Source: Desulfovibrio sp. (GTDB taxonomy: Bacteria > Desulfobacterota > Desulfovibrionia > Desulfovibrionales > Desulfovibrionaceae). From it: DNA of 64,000 nucleotides. Position numbers and translations under genes: made by a program. Within the stretch, counting starts at the first letter, position 1; every line of letters starts with the position of its first letter. The stretch lies in the NCBI GenBank assembly GCA_031271265.1, contig JAISWB010000096.1:1-64000 (forward strand). The letters are read 5' to 3'. Shown here piece after piece: positions 7,912-38,020 of this stretch. A model generated the notes under the pieces. The model was given only the letters and a program-made list of their open reading frames with translations, was not told the DNA's origin and did not search any database.

Positions 7912-8235
7912 ATGACAAAGCAAACAAATACTCCTGTGGTGTTGGCAGACTTTGAAAGCAAGGCAAAAGAATTCATCAGCCTGACCTTATCAAACATTGT
8001 CGCGCAACGCTCCGCGTTGCAATTCCGCGCGCGTTCCGAAAGGCATTTCAAAGTGAGCGGCGCGGATGGACATGCGCCTGGAATAGAGCCGGTTCTGGAA
8101 AATTCAGGGTTTTGCCGTTTTTTCAACCGCCTCTCGCGCTTTGGAACTGTTATACAGGTCGAAACGCTCCGGTTCGCCGAAGAACAGGTTGCGGCATACA
8201 TGAATGGTCACGTCTGGAAACGCCTCTTGAAATGA
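7912..8235 (+). pseudogene. Truncated fifth gene of the PhzF set
   Basis: An ATG at 7912 follows CCCAAGGAGTTTGGAA, a strong ribosome binding site, and the first 30 or so residues (MTKQTNTPVVLADFESKAKE...) look like a real N terminus. After about 8000 the same frame runs antisense to the ParA-like pseudogene, so the coding sequence is probably cut by an element junction there. I do not recognise the N-terminal piece. Confidence 0.4.
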
Positions 8236-8644
8236 GTACAAAAATTCGATGGAGTCACGGTATCTGTTGATTATCCAGAAGACAGCCGATTCTCTCCGCA
8301 TCTCCCGCAAGGCTCCCCGCATGATGCCGCCATAGCTCGCCGTACTGGTCTTGGTTCTGGCGGCGGTATTGATGACGATGGTATGCTCCGAGTAGTTCTG
8401 CACCGTGTCCAGCAGATCGGGCCCACCCATCCACATCGTCAAAAGAGTCCATCAGGCAATGCAGATTCGGCAGGGCGAGGTCTTTATGCGCCTTGAACAC
8501 GTCCTGGTTGTCGGTGTCCGTGGCCACAAGCAGGACGTTCCGTTCCCGGTTCAGAAGATAATCGGTCAGGGCGAAGGAAAGAAGGGTTTTACCCACGCCG
8601 CCTTTACTGCCGCCGATATAGTAAATGTTGAAATTGCCGTTCAT
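8010..8644 (-). pseudogene. ParA/MobD-like P-loop ATPase, frameshifted
   Basis: From ATG 8644 the protein begins MNGNFNIYYIGGSKGGVGKT, a deviant Walker A of the ParA/MinD type used by plasmid partition and mobilisation ATPases, followed by LLVATDTDNQD. Near 8420 an extra C in a CCC run shifts the frame; the next piece (DLLDTVQNYSEHTIVINTAARTKT..., then LYNSSKAREAVEK) continues the fold. At 8118-8123 a short A-run breaks it again before KTLNFPE, and further shifts follow. The gene order fits a mobilisation module of an integrative element. Several breaks make decay more likely than a single sequencing error. Confidence 0.65.
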
Positions 8645-10339: not shown

Positions 10340-11539
10340 TTAATCAATGTTTCTCAATCCGCTCCGGTGGCGCAGGCGGGCGACGAGAGCCCTGTCCCTG
10401 CCCGCGTGATCCGTATGCAGGCGGGCTTCGCGCCAGAGGCCCGCGCGCAGCGCGGAGAGGAGCCGCGCGCCCTGCTTTTCCCCTATTTCCAGCAGAAGGA
10501 GACCGCCCGGCTTGAGCAATGTTTCCGCGCAGCGCACGATGCTCAGGGCGGCGGAACTGCCGTCGACGTTCCCTTCCGCCCCGCGGGCCGGAACGGGCAC
10601 CAGGGCTGTTTTCGGCTCATGTTCGCGTATTTCGCGCGGCAGGCGGGCGTATTCCTCCGCACTCACATAGGGGGGGTTGGCTACCAGCAGGTTCAGGGAG
10701 CGTTCGCGCAGGGGGGGGTGGTTGAAATCGGCGCGGAAGAAGGCCACGCGGCTGCAGCCCAAGGCGCGGCAGTTTTGGGAGGCAAGGTGCAGCGCGCCCT
10801 CGCTCATGTCGAGGGCCAACCCTCGCCAGTTGTCGGGCAATTCCAGATCCAGGATTGCGGCAAGGCAGCCGGAGCCTGTGCCGAAATCGGCAAAGACGGC
10901 CTTGTCCGTGCCGTGCCGGCAACTCGGGGATGCGGCCGAGGCGAGTTCGATGAGAAGTTCGCTTTCCGGGCGAGGTATGAGTACTTCCGGCCCGACTGTG
11001 AAGGTGCGGCCGTAAAATTCTTTTTTCCCCGTGATATAGGCGGTCGGCTCGCCGGCAGCGCGCCGTCCGATAAATGCGCGGGCTTTTGCCGCGTGCGCCG
11101 GGTCCAGGGGTTGTCCGGGCGACATGATCAGCTCTTTGAGCAAATCCGCCCTGTCCACGCCGCAGGCCGCGGCCAGGAGGACTTCCGCCGTCAGGCGGGG
11201 GCTGTCGGCGCGGGCCTTGTCCAGAAAATGCGTGGCGGCAGCGAGGAAGCGTGGTGCATCGGCTGGAAATCGCCCGGTATCCGTGAGGAAGCGTTCTGCA
11301 TCGGCTGGAAATCGCCCGGTATCCGGGAGGAAGCACTCCGCATCGGCGTGGAAATGCCCGGTCTCCGTGGGGAAGCACTCGGCATCGGCGGGCAAGAGGT
11401 CGGTATCCGTGCGGAAGCGCGCTGCCTCGGCGGCGGAGGGCTTTACGTCGGTGGGGAAGCGTTCGGTTTCGATGTGAAAGGGCCGGCAGTCGGACCCGGT
11501 GTCCGCGGGCGGCGAGGCGGCATGGCGCGGGCGGTGCAC
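10340..11539 (-). CDS. prmC: Release-factor glutamine methyltransferase with N-terminal repeat extension
   Basis: PrmC (HemK) methylates the glutamine of the GGQ loop in release factors. The C-terminal 280 residues are standard: THFLDKARADSPRLTAEVLL (N-terminal helical domain), GKKEFYGRTFTVGPEVLIPRPESELL, the SAM loop FADFGTGSGCLAAIL and the active-site NPPYVS. In front lies an unusual 115-residue extension of about six 14-residue repeats (TGRFPADAERFLTD type) coded by a 42-bp DNA tandem array. GTG 11539 starts 10 bp after the prfA stop, the classical prfA-prmC pair. A shorter product starting near the helical domain is possible, but I see no good start there. Confidence 0.9.
   Translation of the reverse strand: MHRPRHAASPPADTGSDCRPFHIETERFPTDVKPSAAEAARFRTDTDLLPADAECFPTETGHFHADAECFLPDTGRFPADAERFLTDTGRFPADAPRFLAAATHFLDKARADSPRLTAEVLLAAACGVDRADLLKELIMSPGQPLDPAHAAKARAFIGRRAAGEPTAYITGKKEFYGRTFTVGPEVLIPRPESELLIELASAASPSCRHGTDKAVFADFGTGSGCLAAILDLELPDNWRGLALDMSEGALHLASQNCRALGCSRVAFFRADFNHPPLRERSLNLLVANPPYVSAEEYARLPREIREHEPKTALVPVPARGAEGNVDGSSAALSIVRCAETLLKPGGLLLLEIGEKQGARLLSALRAGLWREARLHTDHAGRDRALVARLRHRSGLRNID
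11246..11482. repeat. 42-bp tandem repeat, about 5.6 copies, in the prmC 5' end
   Basis: Units begin at 11246, 11288, 11330, 11372, 11414 and 11456, each starting GAAGC. The first two differ at only a few positions; the outer ones are more diverged. Because 42 is a multiple of three, the array encodes a 14-residue repeat in PrmC. Confidence 0.9.
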
Positions 11540-11549
11540 GGCGCGGGAG

Positions 11550-12620
11550 TTACAGCTCGGACTGAGCCTGGAGTTTTTCCGCCTGGGCGGCGGTGGTCAG
11601 GGCATCGACAATTTCCTGGATATCACCTTCAAGAACTTGTTCCAGTTTGTAGAGGGTCAGGTTGACGCGGTGGTCGGTCACGCGGCTCTGGGGGAAATTG
11701 TAGGTGCGGATACGTTCGGAGCGGTCTCCGGAACCGACCTGGGAGCGGCGGTTTGCGGCCTGTTCGGCGTGCAGCCGGTCCTGCTCGGCCTGCAGGAGAC
11801 GCGAACGGAGCACCTTCAGCGCCTTGGCCCTGTTTTTGTGCTGCGATTTTTCGTCCTGACAGGAAACGCTGATGCCGGTCGGGATATGCGTCAGGCGCAC
11901 GGCCGAATCAGTGGTGTTGACGCTTTGGCCTCCCGGCCCCGAGGAGCGGAAGACGTCGAAGCGCAGATCGTCGGGTTTCAGGTCTACGTCGGCTTCCTCG
12001 GCCTCGGGCATGACGGCCACGGTTGCGGCCGAGGTGTGGATGCGCCCTTGCGATTCCGTGACCGGCACGCGCTGCACCCGGTGGGTGCCTGCTTCGTATT
12101 TCAGGTAGCTGTAGGCTTTCTTTCCGTTCAGGAGGGCGATGATTTCCCTGCAACCGCCGCCGGCGGCATCGCTCATTCCCAGGATTTCCACCGTCCAGCC
12201 GCGCCTTTCCGCATAGCGGGCGTACATGCGGAAGAGGTCCGCGGCAAAGAGAGCGGCTTCTTCTCCGCCGGTTCCGGCGCGGATTTCCAGAATGGTGTTC
12301 TTGTCGTCCAGAGGATCGGCGGGAAGGAGCAGGAGGGTCAGTTCCTGTTCCAGGCGGGCCGCTTCCGCCTCCAGGTGTTTTATTTCCTCGCGGGCCATCT
12401 CCCGAATATCGCCGTCCTCGTCCTGAAGCAGGGAAGCGCTTGCGGCGGCCTGCTTTTTGATTGCTTCGTACCGTCCGAAGCACTCCACAATCTCCTTGAG
12501 ATCCGCGTGGGCTTTGGCCAGTCTGCGGTAGCGCTCCGGATCGGCAACGGCTTCCGGGTCGGCAAGCTGTCGTTCCAGATCCTCATGGGTGCGCTTGAGA
12601 TTTTCCAGTTTTGCGAACAT
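11550..12620 (-). CDS. prfA: Peptide chain release factor 1
   Basis: RF1 recognises UAA and UAG and triggers peptide release. The 356-residue protein shows the codon-reading tripeptide PVT in [14 protein letters not shown] (PxT marks RF1, SPF would mark RF2) and the catalytic GGQ in [26 protein letters not shown] and [14 protein letters not shown] are also typical. It lies between DUF1385 (70 bp upstream) and prmC (10 bp downstream), whose product modifies this GGQ. A 31-bp tandem duplication sits just upstream. Confidence 0.96.
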
Positions 12621-34145: not shown

Positions 34146-34413
34146 GGTCGGCCTTGGTCGGAGGGTTGCGCAACACCGTTTTGCAGCCGCGCAGCATACA
34201 AAACGGCGTTCTATACCCCTTCGGGGCGCTAAAGGAAAGCCCCGGTATGCCGATAATAGTTTAGACTTTTTCAAGACTGCGCGGGGCGTGCGCGCGGCGG
34301 AGCGGCCTTGCCGGCGGACGGCAAAGCTACACCGCACGGACGCGGCATAGTTGAATATCAAGTAGGGACGACAGATGCGTTTGTCCAACGGCGCGGAGGC
34401 GGGCATGATCGGA

Positions 34414-34545
34414 CGGAATTTTCCCGGCGCGTTGCGTTTTCCGGTGCGGACCTTTCGGGATATGTTGCGCTTTCTCACGCGAAATTTTCCCGGCGGGGCG
34501 CGCTTTCAGCCGCGGCGTTTTCCCGGAGCGATGCGCCTGTTGTCG
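34414..34545. repeat. Four tandem 33-bp units over the NlpC/P60 start
   Basis: Units at 34414, 34447, 34480 and 34513, consensus CG-AATTTTCCCGG-G-G-TGCGCTTT. The last unit holds GGAGCGATG, the ribosome site and start of the lipoprotein gene. In frame they would encode an 11-residue repeat (RNFPGALRFPV, RNFPGGARFQP, RRFPGAMRLLS). Confidence 0.85.
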
Positions 34546-35001
34546 TTGTGCGCCGTTTGCCTGTTGCTTGCGCAGAGCGCGGGCTGTTCCCTGCGTTCGG
34601 GCGCAGGCGGCGGCGGGGAAGGGACGGCTTCGGGGCGCGCCGTGAGTAAGGTTGCCTTGAGCGCGGTTGGCGTGCCCTATCGCATCGGGGGCAGCACGCC
34701 GGAGAAAGGTTTCGATTGTTCGGGGCTTGTTTTTTGGGCCTACGCCCGCAACGGAGTCAAGGTGCCGCGCACGGCTGCGGAGCAGAGCGGGCTGGGTTCG
34801 TCCGTGCGCCGCTCCGAGTTGAAGCCGGGAGATATCCTGGTATTCAGGATTAAAAACGGCCTGCACACCGCCGTCTACGTCGGGGGAAGCCGCTTTGTTC
34901 ACAGCCCGAGCAGCGGCAAAAAGGTGCGTGTGGACAACATATCCGGCGATTACTGGAAAACCCGCCTCATTGCCGCGCGGCGCGTCCGGCAGATATATTG
35001 A
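34531..35001 (+). CDS. NlpC/P60-family peptidoglycan hydrolase lipoprotein
   Basis: From ATG 34531 (after CCCGGAGCG) the protein is 156 residues: a lipoprotein signal MRLLSLCAVCLLLAQSAGC with the lipidated cysteine at 19, then an NlpC/P60 domain, a cysteine endopeptidase of cell-wall stem peptides. Active residues are Cys in GFDCSGLVFWAYARNG and His in NGLHTAVYVGG, with FVHSPSSGKKVRVD after it. The ORF track starts 52 codons earlier at 34375; that would put four cationic 11-residue repeats before the signal peptide, which is unlikely for export but cannot be excluded. Confidence 0.85.
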   Translation: MRLLSLCAVCLLLAQSAGCSLRSGAGGGGEGTASGRAVSKVALSAVGVPYRIGGSTPEKGFDCSGLVFWAYARNGVKVPRTAAEQSGLGSSVRRSELKPGDILVFRIKNGLHTAVYVGGSRFVHSPSSGKKVRVDNISGDYWKTRLIAARRVRQIY

Positions 35002-35024: not shown

Positions 35025-35112
35025 CTGGTAGGCAAACCTGTCTACCTTACCTTCCTCATCGGTGAGGGTCATGTGTGGAGGGCGGGCGCCGGCCCGGACC
35101 GACGCCATGTCG

Positions 35113-35168
35113 GCGGTGGAGATTTTTCGGAAGCGCAGGTCTTCAGCGGCGGAGATTTTTCGGAAGCG
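35113..35168. repeat. 33-bp-period duplication upstream of the glycosyltransferase
   Basis: GCGG(T/C)GGAGATTTTTCGGAAGCG occurs at 35113-35135 and 35146-35168, one mismatch in 23. It lies 100-150 bp before the glycosyltransferase start. Confidence 0.85.
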
Positions 35169-35266
35169 ATTGTATTTCTCAGGATACTGTATCAGTATAC
35201 TACGGTAATTATCACGCCGGATGCGCGCTGTTTCACTTGCCGCCGAGCATGAAAGGGGAACGGAGT

Positions 35267-36286
35267 ATGTACGTTGCGCCCAAAAAACCTTTGGCCCTGC
35301 TGATCGGCGTCACAGGCGACCTGGGTTTCGCCGCGGGATGCCTGTTGCAGTCCCTGCGCAGGCACAGCCCGCACCTGGAAGCCGATGTTGTCATGTACAC
35401 CGACGGCGCTCTGCCGCCGGTCGACGCCGCCCTGCTCGAAGGCATGGGCGCGCGCCTTACGCCGTTTACGCCGCCGCAGGCGGACTTGCCCGCGGAGGCC
35501 GTCAGGCAGTTTTCCCTGCTTTGTCTGGCGTGTTTTGAAGGTTTTCTTCTCCTTGATCGCTACAAGACCGTCATCCGGCTGGACGCGGACGTTGCCGTGC
35601 AGGACGATATCAGTGCTCTTGCAAACTACGGTCCGCTGTCCATGGCGCTTGAAGACCCTTATTTTACGGACACAGGACGCTCTTTGCCGGCTTCGGTCAA
35701 TGTGCTCAAGCCGTTGCCCGGCTTGGACGGTGAAGCGCCCAACCTCAATTCGGGAGTGCTGGTTCTTCAGGACAGCCTGCCTGAGCCGGCAAAACTGCGT
35801 GACCTCTGTCTGCGCCGGCTCAAGAATGACGCGTCCTATTTGCGCTATCCCGATCAGGCGGTCTTGAACATGCTGGCACAGCAGTTGCGAAGGAACGATC
35901 CGCCACTGTTTTCTCTGCTTCCCTACGAGCGTTTCAACGCCCACCCGCGCAATCCCGCGGCGCAGACCGCCGCCGTGGTGCATGCCTTCGGGGCGTATAA
36001 GCTTTGGGATGACGGGTTGACACGCTGTTCTTTCCCGGAATGGCATAGGGATTATTGCCGTTGGCTGTCCCTGGGAGGCAGTCCCTGGCGGGGCGAGGTC
36101 GGGAACGGCGAGTACCTGGAAGGCGGGGCTTTTTTTATGCTTAACAGGCTGTACGGCAACGTGCAGACTGCCCAGGAGCTTCTCGACCGCATGCGCGACG
36201 ATCTGGTCCGGGAGAAGAAGCTGAGACGGAACCTGGAAAAGACGATTGCCGCAGGCGGCGGCCCGGTAGGGAAAGATCCGCAATGA
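35267..36286 (+). CDS. GT8-like glycosyltransferase
   Basis: A 339-residue cytoplasmic transferase of the GT-A fold. It opens LALLIGVTGDLGFAAGCLLQSLRRHSP, has LLDRYKTVIRLDADVAVQDD with the DAD metal-binding motif, and APNLNSGVLVLQDSL, the acceptor-side motif of GT8 family enzymes that work on LPS or glycogenin-type acceptors. FNAHPRNP and VVHAFGAYKLWDDG complete the pattern. ATG 35267 follows GGGGAACGGAGT; the earlier ORF start runs through repeats. The sugar and acceptor are unknown. Its neighbour NlpC hints at envelope work but there is no polysaccharide cluster. Confidence 0.75.
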   Translation: MYVAPKKPLALLIGVTGDLGFAAGCLLQSLRRHSPHLEADVVMYTDGALPPVDAALLEGMGARLTPFTPPQADLPAEAVRQFSLLCLACFEGFLLLDRYKTVIRLDADVAVQDDISALANYGPLSMALEDPYFTDTGRSLPASVNVLKPLPGLDGEAPNLNSGVLVLQDSLPEPAKLRDLCLRRLKNDASYLRYPDQAVLNMLAQQLRRNDPPLFSLLPYERFNAHPRNPAAQTAAVVHAFGAYKLWDDGLTRCSFPEWHRDYCRWLSLGGSPWRGEVGNGEYLEGGAFFMLNRLYGNVQTAQELLDRMRDDLVREKKLRRNLEKTIAAGGGPVGKDPQ

Positions 36287-36355
36287 CATCGTGTTGCTTG
36301 CAGCACATTCTTTTGTGTTCCAGGTAATTGCCGGACGCTCGGGCGACGTTCCCAT

Positions 36356-36475
36356 ATCTGAAAGGCGCTGTTTCCCGATCCGGAGAAGCGTTGTTCCTCT
36401 ATCTGAAAGGCGCGGTTTCCCGATCCGGAGAAGCGTTGTTCCTCTATCGGGAAGGCGCGGTTTCCTGTAGGAAAA
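36356..36475. repeat. 45-bp tandem repeat, about 2.7 copies
   Basis: ATCTGAAAGGCGC(T/G)GTTTCCCGATCCGG... starts at 36356, 36401 and (changed, truncated) 36446. Units one and two differ at one base over 45. The array fills the gap between the glycosyltransferase and the HDOD gene and ends about 45 bp before the latter. Confidence 0.9.
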
Positions 36476-36518: not shown

Positions 36519-37859
36519 ATGATGGAAAAACTGGATATACAACAGGTTCATGCCGGGAGAAAACTCGGCCAGCCCGTTTTTGGAGCGGACGGGGTTCTTC
36601 TGTTTCCCCCCGGCCGGATACTGACGCAGGAAGACCTGGAAATTCTGGCCCGGAACGGCCTGACGCGTATCTCGCTTTTCCCCGTCGCGCGTGAAGCAGG
36701 CGTTGCGCCGCCCCAGGCGGCGAACCTGACGAGCAGCGGCGCGGTCATGTACCCGGACGAGCGGCCTCCCTTTTTCTATACCCGCTCGCAGGAAGCGCCG
36801 AACGAGGTCATTTCCGCGCTTGATGAACGCAGTATCGAAAAAATCAGCGATTACACGGCGGAACGTTTTCGTCTGATGGATGCCGACGACCCGCTTGTCG
36901 CGGAGCTTTTCAATATTGCCGTGGAACGCCAGATCAGGGTTTACCACGACAGACCCACGCGCATACCGTCGTGGCCCAAGCATAGCGGCCTGTTGCCCGG
37001 CCCGGAACGTCCCCGCGATGTTTCCATGCAGAAACTGACGGCGACCAGCCACCGCATCGGCACGCTTCCGACCATATTCCACCGCCTGATCGGGATGATC
37101 AACAACCCTATCGTAAATTCCGAAGAACTGTCCAAGGTCATTGCCGTGGACCCCGCATTGACGGCCAAACTTCTGAAACTGGTCAACAGTCCCTTTTTCG
37201 GCTTGCCCTACAAGATAGACAGCATTTCGCGCGCCGTACTCATCGTGGGCACCAAGCAACTGGTCATGCTCGCCATGGGCGCCACGCTGATTTCGGCCTT
37301 CAAGGGGCTGCCCGTAAGCCTTGTGAACATGCAGTCCTACTGGTCGCATTCCATAAGCTGCGGGGCGGCCTGCAGGTTGCTCTGCGTCAAGGCAGGCATA
37401 CAGGACGCGGAAAGTTTCTTCGTCGCCGGCCTGCTCCACGACATATCCAGACTGTTGATTTACGTGCAGCTTCCCGATCATGCCCGCTACATAGTGACCG
37501 AGGCCGCGCGCAGAAACATACCCGTGCGCGACATGGAAATGGAAACCCTGGGGTTTACCCATGAGGATCTGGGCGCGGAACTGCTCCGCTCCTGGAACTG
37601 TCCCGACGAACTTGTGCTGAGGGTGCAAAGGCATCACCGCGTCCCCGATCCGGGTTGCGCCGCCGAAGAAGTGATTCTGCCGACGGCGAACATGCTCTCG
37701 CAGGCCCTGGGCTACGGCTCCAGCGGCGAAATGATTATTCCGCCGCAGCCGGCCGTTGCCTGGGCGAAAATCGGGCTGAACACCGAGGGCCTTTGCATGC
37801 TCTGCGCCGAACTCGACAACGACGTCAGGGAATTGCGCACAGTTTTCACTCCCATATGA
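36519..37859 (+). CDS. HDOD-domain signalling protein
   Basis: A 446-residue protein with an N-terminal region of about 150 residues (QPVFGADGVLLFPPGRILTQEDLEIL, as in many c-di-GMP or HD-GYP-related proteins) and a central HDOD domain: LPTIFHRLIGMINNP, VIAVDPALTAKLLKLVNSPFFG, ISRAVLIVGTKQLVMLAMG, with FVAGLLHDISRLLIY and FTHEDLGAELLRSWNCP. HDOD proteins resemble HD hydrolases without full catalytic sets and act in signalling or stress circuits. ATG 36519 or 36522 can be the start. The upstream gap is a 45-bp repeat array. Confidence 0.85.
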   Translation: MMEKLDIQQVHAGRKLGQPVFGADGVLLFPPGRILTQEDLEILARNGLTRISLFPVAREAGVAPPQAANLTSSGAVMYPDERPPFFYTRSQEAPNEVISALDERSIEKISDYTAERFRLMDADDPLVAELFNIAVERQIRVYHDRPTRIPSWPKHSGLLPGPERPRDVSMQKLTATSHRIGTLPTIFHRLIGMINNPIVNSEELSKVIAVDPALTAKLLKLVNSPFFGLPYKIDSISRAVLIVGTKQLVMLAMGATLISAFKGLPVSLVNMQSYWSHSISCGAACRLLCVKAGIQDAESFFVAGLLHDISRLLIYVQLPDHARYIVTEAARRNIPVRDMEMETLGFTHEDLGAELLRSWNCPDELVLRVQRHHRVPDPGCAAEEVILPTANMLSQALGYGSSGEMIIPPQPAVAWAKIGLNTEGLCMLCAELDNDVRELRTVFTPI

Positions 37860-37936
37860 AGGAAAATATGCACCGCTTTTATTCTCGTTGTGCGGAGAGA
37901 GCTTCAGGATTGCCGCAGTCGGAATCGGATGCCGGG

Positions 37937-38020
37937 AAATGTGGATGAACTGTATATGCCTTACCGGCCGTAAGAAGGAAATGCGGATGAGTTATGCATG
38001 CCGTACCGGCCGAAAGGCGG
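37937..38020. repeat. Two tandem 42-bp units before the small hypothetical gene
   Basis: AAATG(T/C)GGATGA...TACCGGCCG...AGG units start at 37937 and 37979. They are diverged (about 75% alike). The second ends 9 bp before the next start codon. Confidence 0.7.

Follow-up and report, generated by a model that had tools for sequence, protein, structure and literature searches.

An in-frame minisatellite at the start of prmC in a gut Desulfovibrio, probably encoding a tolerated disordered tail

We examined the start of the prmC gene in a 64,000-nucleotide stretch of a gut Desulfovibrio genome (assembly GCA_031271265.1, contig JAISWB010000096.1, positions 1 to 64,000; hereafter the window). The tandem array found there is best read as a coding minisatellite, a known kind of element, and not as a new functional domain. 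We consider it probable (roughly 0.75) that the gene encodes an ordinary PrmC with a tolerated disordered tail, derived by slippage that kept the reading frame, in the stretch from a prfA-adjacent start codon to the first PrmC helix. The tail is carried by this bacterium and two close relatives. The copy-number comparisons below use one genome per species; the window genome is a draft (116 contigs), and the closest relatives that have names are metagenome-assembled genomes.

The prmC gene and its product

The features on which the analysis rests are as follows, in window coordinates.

11550..12620, minus strand: prfA, encoding RF1, the substrate of PrmC; directly upstream of prmC (TIGR00019, 530 bits; GGQ present)
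10340..11539, minus strand: prmC coding sequence, stop included; 399 amino acids, GTG start; TIGR03534 RF_mod_PrmC
11246..11539, minus strand: N-terminal extension, codons 1-98, 14 heptads; normal PrmC begins about 5-10 residues before residue 98
11477..11539, minus strand: leader heptads 1-3 (VHRPRHA ASPPADT GSDCRPF), homologous in two sister species
11243..11431, minus strand: 42-bp tandem array, 4.5 copies, a dimer of 21-bp units (TRF)
11393..11395, minus strand: TTG codon 49, the sole other in-frame standard start before codon 128; inside the array, with no Shine-Dalgarno sequence
11027..11245, minus strand: PrmC_N helical domain, residues 99-171 (PF17827, 64 bits, cut-off 23.4)
10868..10882, minus strand: SAM-binding GTGSG motif (GxGxG), residues 220-224, conserved in aligned relatives
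10667..10678, minus strand: NPPY substrate-glutamine motif, residues 288-291, conserved in aligned relatives

Judged by its sequence, the product of 10340..11539 (minus strand) is a bona fide PrmC, a predicted release-factor glutamine methyltransferase. The 399-residue ORF matches TIGR03534 with 210.5 bits against a curated equivalog cut-off of 199.1, and the best Foldseek match of the core is E. coli PrmC in complex with RF1 (2b3t_A; E 3e-21, TM-score 0.92 on the target). The initial annotation had placed a normal PrmC behind the array, and with TIGR03534 and PrmC_N both above cut-off and the GxGxG and NPPY motifs present we agree. No second PrmC was found in the genome, making this the sole copy detected.

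The tandem array

TRF analysis of 11243-11431 returned a period of 42 with 4.5 copies, 82-83% matches and a score of 222-228, the units being degenerate; 436 kb of random sequence with the same dinucleotide statistics contained no array scoring at least 80. The basic unit is 21 bp or 7 residues (PADAERF-LTDTGRF). Identity at a lag of 21 is 0.48 over a baseline of 0.29, a value reached by 0 of 5000 codon shuffles. The 14-residue unit originally described is an alternating dimer of this heptad, present in four well-matched copies at codons 40-95 with degraded heptads on either side; the original count of about six such units holds once degraded copies are included. Counted from the GTG, exactly 16 heptads precede the native DSPRL motif: 3 leader, 11 repeat and 2 native. 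The eleven repeat heptads end PADAERF LTDTGRF PADAPRF and are followed by the native first helix, LAAATHF LDKARAD. In the alignment, residue 110 of the window protein corresponds to residue 16 of E. coli PrmC, and PrmC_N starts at residue 99, so the extension amounts to about 94-95 residues. The array had been described as in frame and a multiple of three, which the TRF result bears out: a 21/42-bp period divisible by three, with no stop inside the intact prmC ORF, is what characterizes a coding minisatellite.

Several other connections were considered and set aside. When the array was used to search its own genome at the DNA level, only short, chance-level matches were returned elsewhere, and we rejected the idea of a dispersed mobile repeat. 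Weak protein matches in other family members were to unrelated ORFs or to a different 7-bp array. A common intergenic motif, GCGNTTTCC, suggestive by eye of a link between the prmC array and 34375-34550 and 36348-36465, was dropped because the strong arrays of the genome differ, with unrelated unit sequences. Our literature search on repeats in PrmC found no paper.

Where translation starts

The prmC GTG lies 10 bases past the prfA stop codon, in keeping with the initial annotation, which had the extension beginning right after that stop. We saw no Shine-Dalgarno sequence ahead of this GTG, and for that reason suggest that translation is probably initiated here by coupling to prfA termination. 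The in-frame standard starts (ATG/GTG/TTG) are GTG at codon 1, TTG at codon 49 and then GTG at codon 128, inside PrmC_N. As none occurs between codons 50 and 127, translation from standard codons has to start either ahead of the array or at TTG49. The open frame by itself proves nothing, since the array has no stops in its sense frames. A codon-position test within the array gave pS 0.21 and pN 0.18, with similar values in the other frames, and was discarded as proof of coding, the differences being insufficiently concentrated at synonymous sites.

It had been recognized at the outset that a start after the array would turn the latter into an untranslated leader. On that reading PrmC would begin at a codon that is cryptic or non-standard, with the array acting as a spacer comparable to the minisatellites found between genes elsewhere in the genome. 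About half of the strong arrays in the genome are indeed intergenic, and the sequence of the extension lacks purifying selection, as described below. In one relative, Desulfovibrio sp. Nm470_bin149 (G001, locus L033), an in-frame GTG at codon 46 (GAT GTG GAG) immediately precedes the native start and could yield a PrmC of normal length, so that translation of its extension is not forced. Against this reading stand the lack of a standard start at codons 50-127 of the window gene and, in a second relative, Nm470_bin82 (G002, locus L031), the absence of any in-frame ATG, GTG or TTG from the first GTG to the native helix. The length differences between species, moreover, are all in-frame multiples of 21 bp, and the intergenic arrays of this genome are often not multiples of three. 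We regard an untranslated leader as unlikely.

Relatives and history of the array

The window genome, G002 and G001 share the leader and the prfA-adjacent GTG, which lies 9-10 bases past the prfA stop. In four further loci of the genus (L004, L006, L007 and L008) the prmC start also falls within about 10 bases of the prfA stop or overlaps it. From the start to DSPRL there are 16 heptads in the window, 10 in G002 and 9 in G001, all whole numbers, so that the extension varies among the three species with the frame kept. These shared starts and copy numbers, the comparison called for by the initial annotation, support its proposal that the array grew in the start region of the gene. The array is absent from G003, whose PrmC is 80% identical, and from G013.

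In a tree of prfA plus PrmC, G001 pairs with G002 (support 97) with the window genome (G000) adjoining, and G003 and then G013 fall outside; the node separating G000-G002 from G003 and the rest has a support of 80. In a set of 104 other PrmC loci, the median distance from the anchor back to the nearest in-frame start is 6 residues and the 90th percentile is 16; only L031 and L002, from one species, exceed 26 residues. These comparisons fit an array that arose once, in the common ancestor of the three species, and expanded later. Long extensions at L061, L015, L070 and L009 were rejected as lacking repeats, or as resulting from the wrong frame or an upstream gene. At the prfA-prmC junction of G003 (locus L003) we noted no in-frame ATG, and an AAAGGA followed by an ATG that is out of frame with prmC; the start there may be a TTG, or the assembly may be doubtful at this point.

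Selection and structure of the tail

For heptads 1-5, the three species pairs gave dN/dS values of 1.96, 1.55 and 0.81, estimates that rest on about 35 codons and in which strict orthology is not assured for array heptads 4-5; the corresponding values for the PrmC core were 0.24, 0.19 and 0.26. On this sequence comparison the extension appears to be free of purifying selection and of any sign of sequence conservation, and the frame is nonetheless kept. AlphaFold, run with a 45-sequence alignment, assigned pLDDT below 50 to residues 1-12, 14-35 and 38-68, block means of 71-83 to residues 71-100, with a short helix at 79-86, and more than 90 to nearly all of the core. Most of the tail is thus predicted to be disordered, and the last repeat units may possibly have a small packing role. 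There is no Pfam family match in residues 1-98, and with low pLDDT and no long helix the tail resembles neither a folded solenoid nor a coiled-coil repeat domain. The initial description of the extension as a domain is for these reasons not upheld. An RNA-structure role for the array was rejected, its folding being no better than that of shuffled sequences (z +1.12).

We envisage that a 21-bp, and later a 42-bp, unit was tandemly duplicated at the 5' end of prmC by slippage or unequal recombination, growth being confined between a start codon fixed beside the prfA stop and the first PrmC helix. With a stop-free unit whose length is divisible by three, each change in copy number would only lengthen or shorten a disordered N-terminal tail. 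The core behind it would be unaffected and would continue under normal selection, the tail being tolerated and its sequence not selected for. Both the slippage and the lack of function are what we infer.

The tail could instead be a length-tunable appendage whose copy number is selected, for example for binding of RF1/RF2, for solubility or for co-translational capture of RF1 from the same operon. Three species have retained it with its heptad period intact, and moderate structure is predicted for the last units, both of which would fit such a role. The dN/dS of about 1 or above and the predicted disorder speak against it. So do the lack of a tail in the other members of the genus that we examined and in some 100 further PrmC loci, and the similar arrays that this genome carries in genes unrelated to prmC; we find it very unlikely. 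A more specific version is a long shot: heptad copy number would change through in-frame slippage where prfA and prmC meet, and would set the output of PrmC or its binding of RF1, thereby tuning termination in gut-adapted Desulfovibrio. That the heptads form a coiled coil prolonging helix 1 and mediating oligomerization is hardly credible. Their period of exactly 7 residues is in register with the native helix (LAAATHF-LDKARAD), but many heptads have proline at the first position and AlphaFold predicts no long helix.

Minisatellites across the genome and clade

Minisatellites are numerous in this genome, and the one in prmC is simply another of them, with nothing particular to that gene. We surveyed 436 kb of the window genome with TRF (period at least 15, score at least 80) and found 18 arrays, or 4.1 per 100 kb. 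The density was 3.3-6.5 per 100 kb in the near relatives G002, G003 and G006, whereas family members beyond this close clade, and G007 of the same genus, had 0-1.5; by these sequence counts the clade seems unusually rich in minisatellites. Using simple home-made gene calls, we observed a period divisible by three in all 9 strong arrays within genes and in 4 of the 8 outside genes. An ABC ATPase (L126) carries an array at its C terminus, and others lie ahead of SLT_2 (L140) and DUF1850 (L133) or in spacers.

On contig C85 of the same genome (L124:7223-7361), a MiaB/MtaB-type protein has an in-frame 33/66-bp minisatellite in the linker that joins its UPF0004 and Radical_SAM domains. Further strong arrays, most of them at the edges of genes, occur at L142:16186-16327, L134:6321-6497, L140:11155-11237 and L127:9934-10065. 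Within the window, 36348-36465 is an intergenic minisatellite (45 bp x 2.6, with halves of about 22 bp) between the ORFs 35075-36286 and 36519-37859, and just past the latter, at 37935-38016, a 42-bp unit is duplicated in tandem. At 34375-34580, an ORF for an NlpC/P60 lipoprotein has in-frame degenerate repeats upstream (RNFPGALRFPVRTFRDMLRFLTRNFPGGARFQPRRFPGA) and then a likely signal peptide, MRLLSLCAVCLLLAQSAGCS; its true start is probably the later ATG. A ParA/MinD-like P-loop protein (GGSKGGVGKT) at 8104-8644 on the minus strand seems split over two frames and is possibly frameshifted or decayed.

Comparison with known systems

The prmC tail offers a clean case in which a minisatellite, slipping in the interval from a start codon to a conserved domain, would give a housekeeping enzyme a new disordered tail; sister species supply shorter versions, and other relatives lack the array. 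Seemingly so rich in such repeats, the clade could be used to study how coding tandem repeats arise in bacteria and what becomes of them. It also carries a caution for annotation, since trimming PrmC starts to the family norm is risky.

The window protein has the same order of PrmC_N and SAM methyltransferase domains as PrmC/HemK (TIGR03534; E. coli 2B3T, 1T43), with GxGxG and NPPY, and in E. coli too prmC directly follows prfA (PMC8904536). It differs in its ∼94 extra N-terminal residues of tandem heptads and in a start codon that adjoins the prfA stop, far from helix 1. In the archaeal Borg elements, all amino acid tandem repeats (aaTRs) within ORFs have units divisible by three, compared with 14-38% of intergenic ones, and their products are mostly disordered and sometimes placed at N termini, as in Sm proteins (PMC9879509). 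Borg genomes carry such repeats throughout, and the repeats described here are likewise widespread in their genome, with in-ORF periods divisible by three, intergenic ones often not, and, for prmC, a product predicted to be disordered. They differ from Borg aaTRs in lying on a bacterial chromosome, in having imperfect, diverged units (TRF ∼82% matches) and in extending a housekeeping cytoplasmic enzyme, and the prmC repeat sequence bears no sign of selection. Nor is the array a phase-variable contingency locus, because with a period that is a multiple of three a change in copy number is unable to shift the frame. It is most like the coding minisatellites or VNTRs of bacteria, with which it shares a period divisible by three and, on one genome per species, a copy number that differs between relatives.
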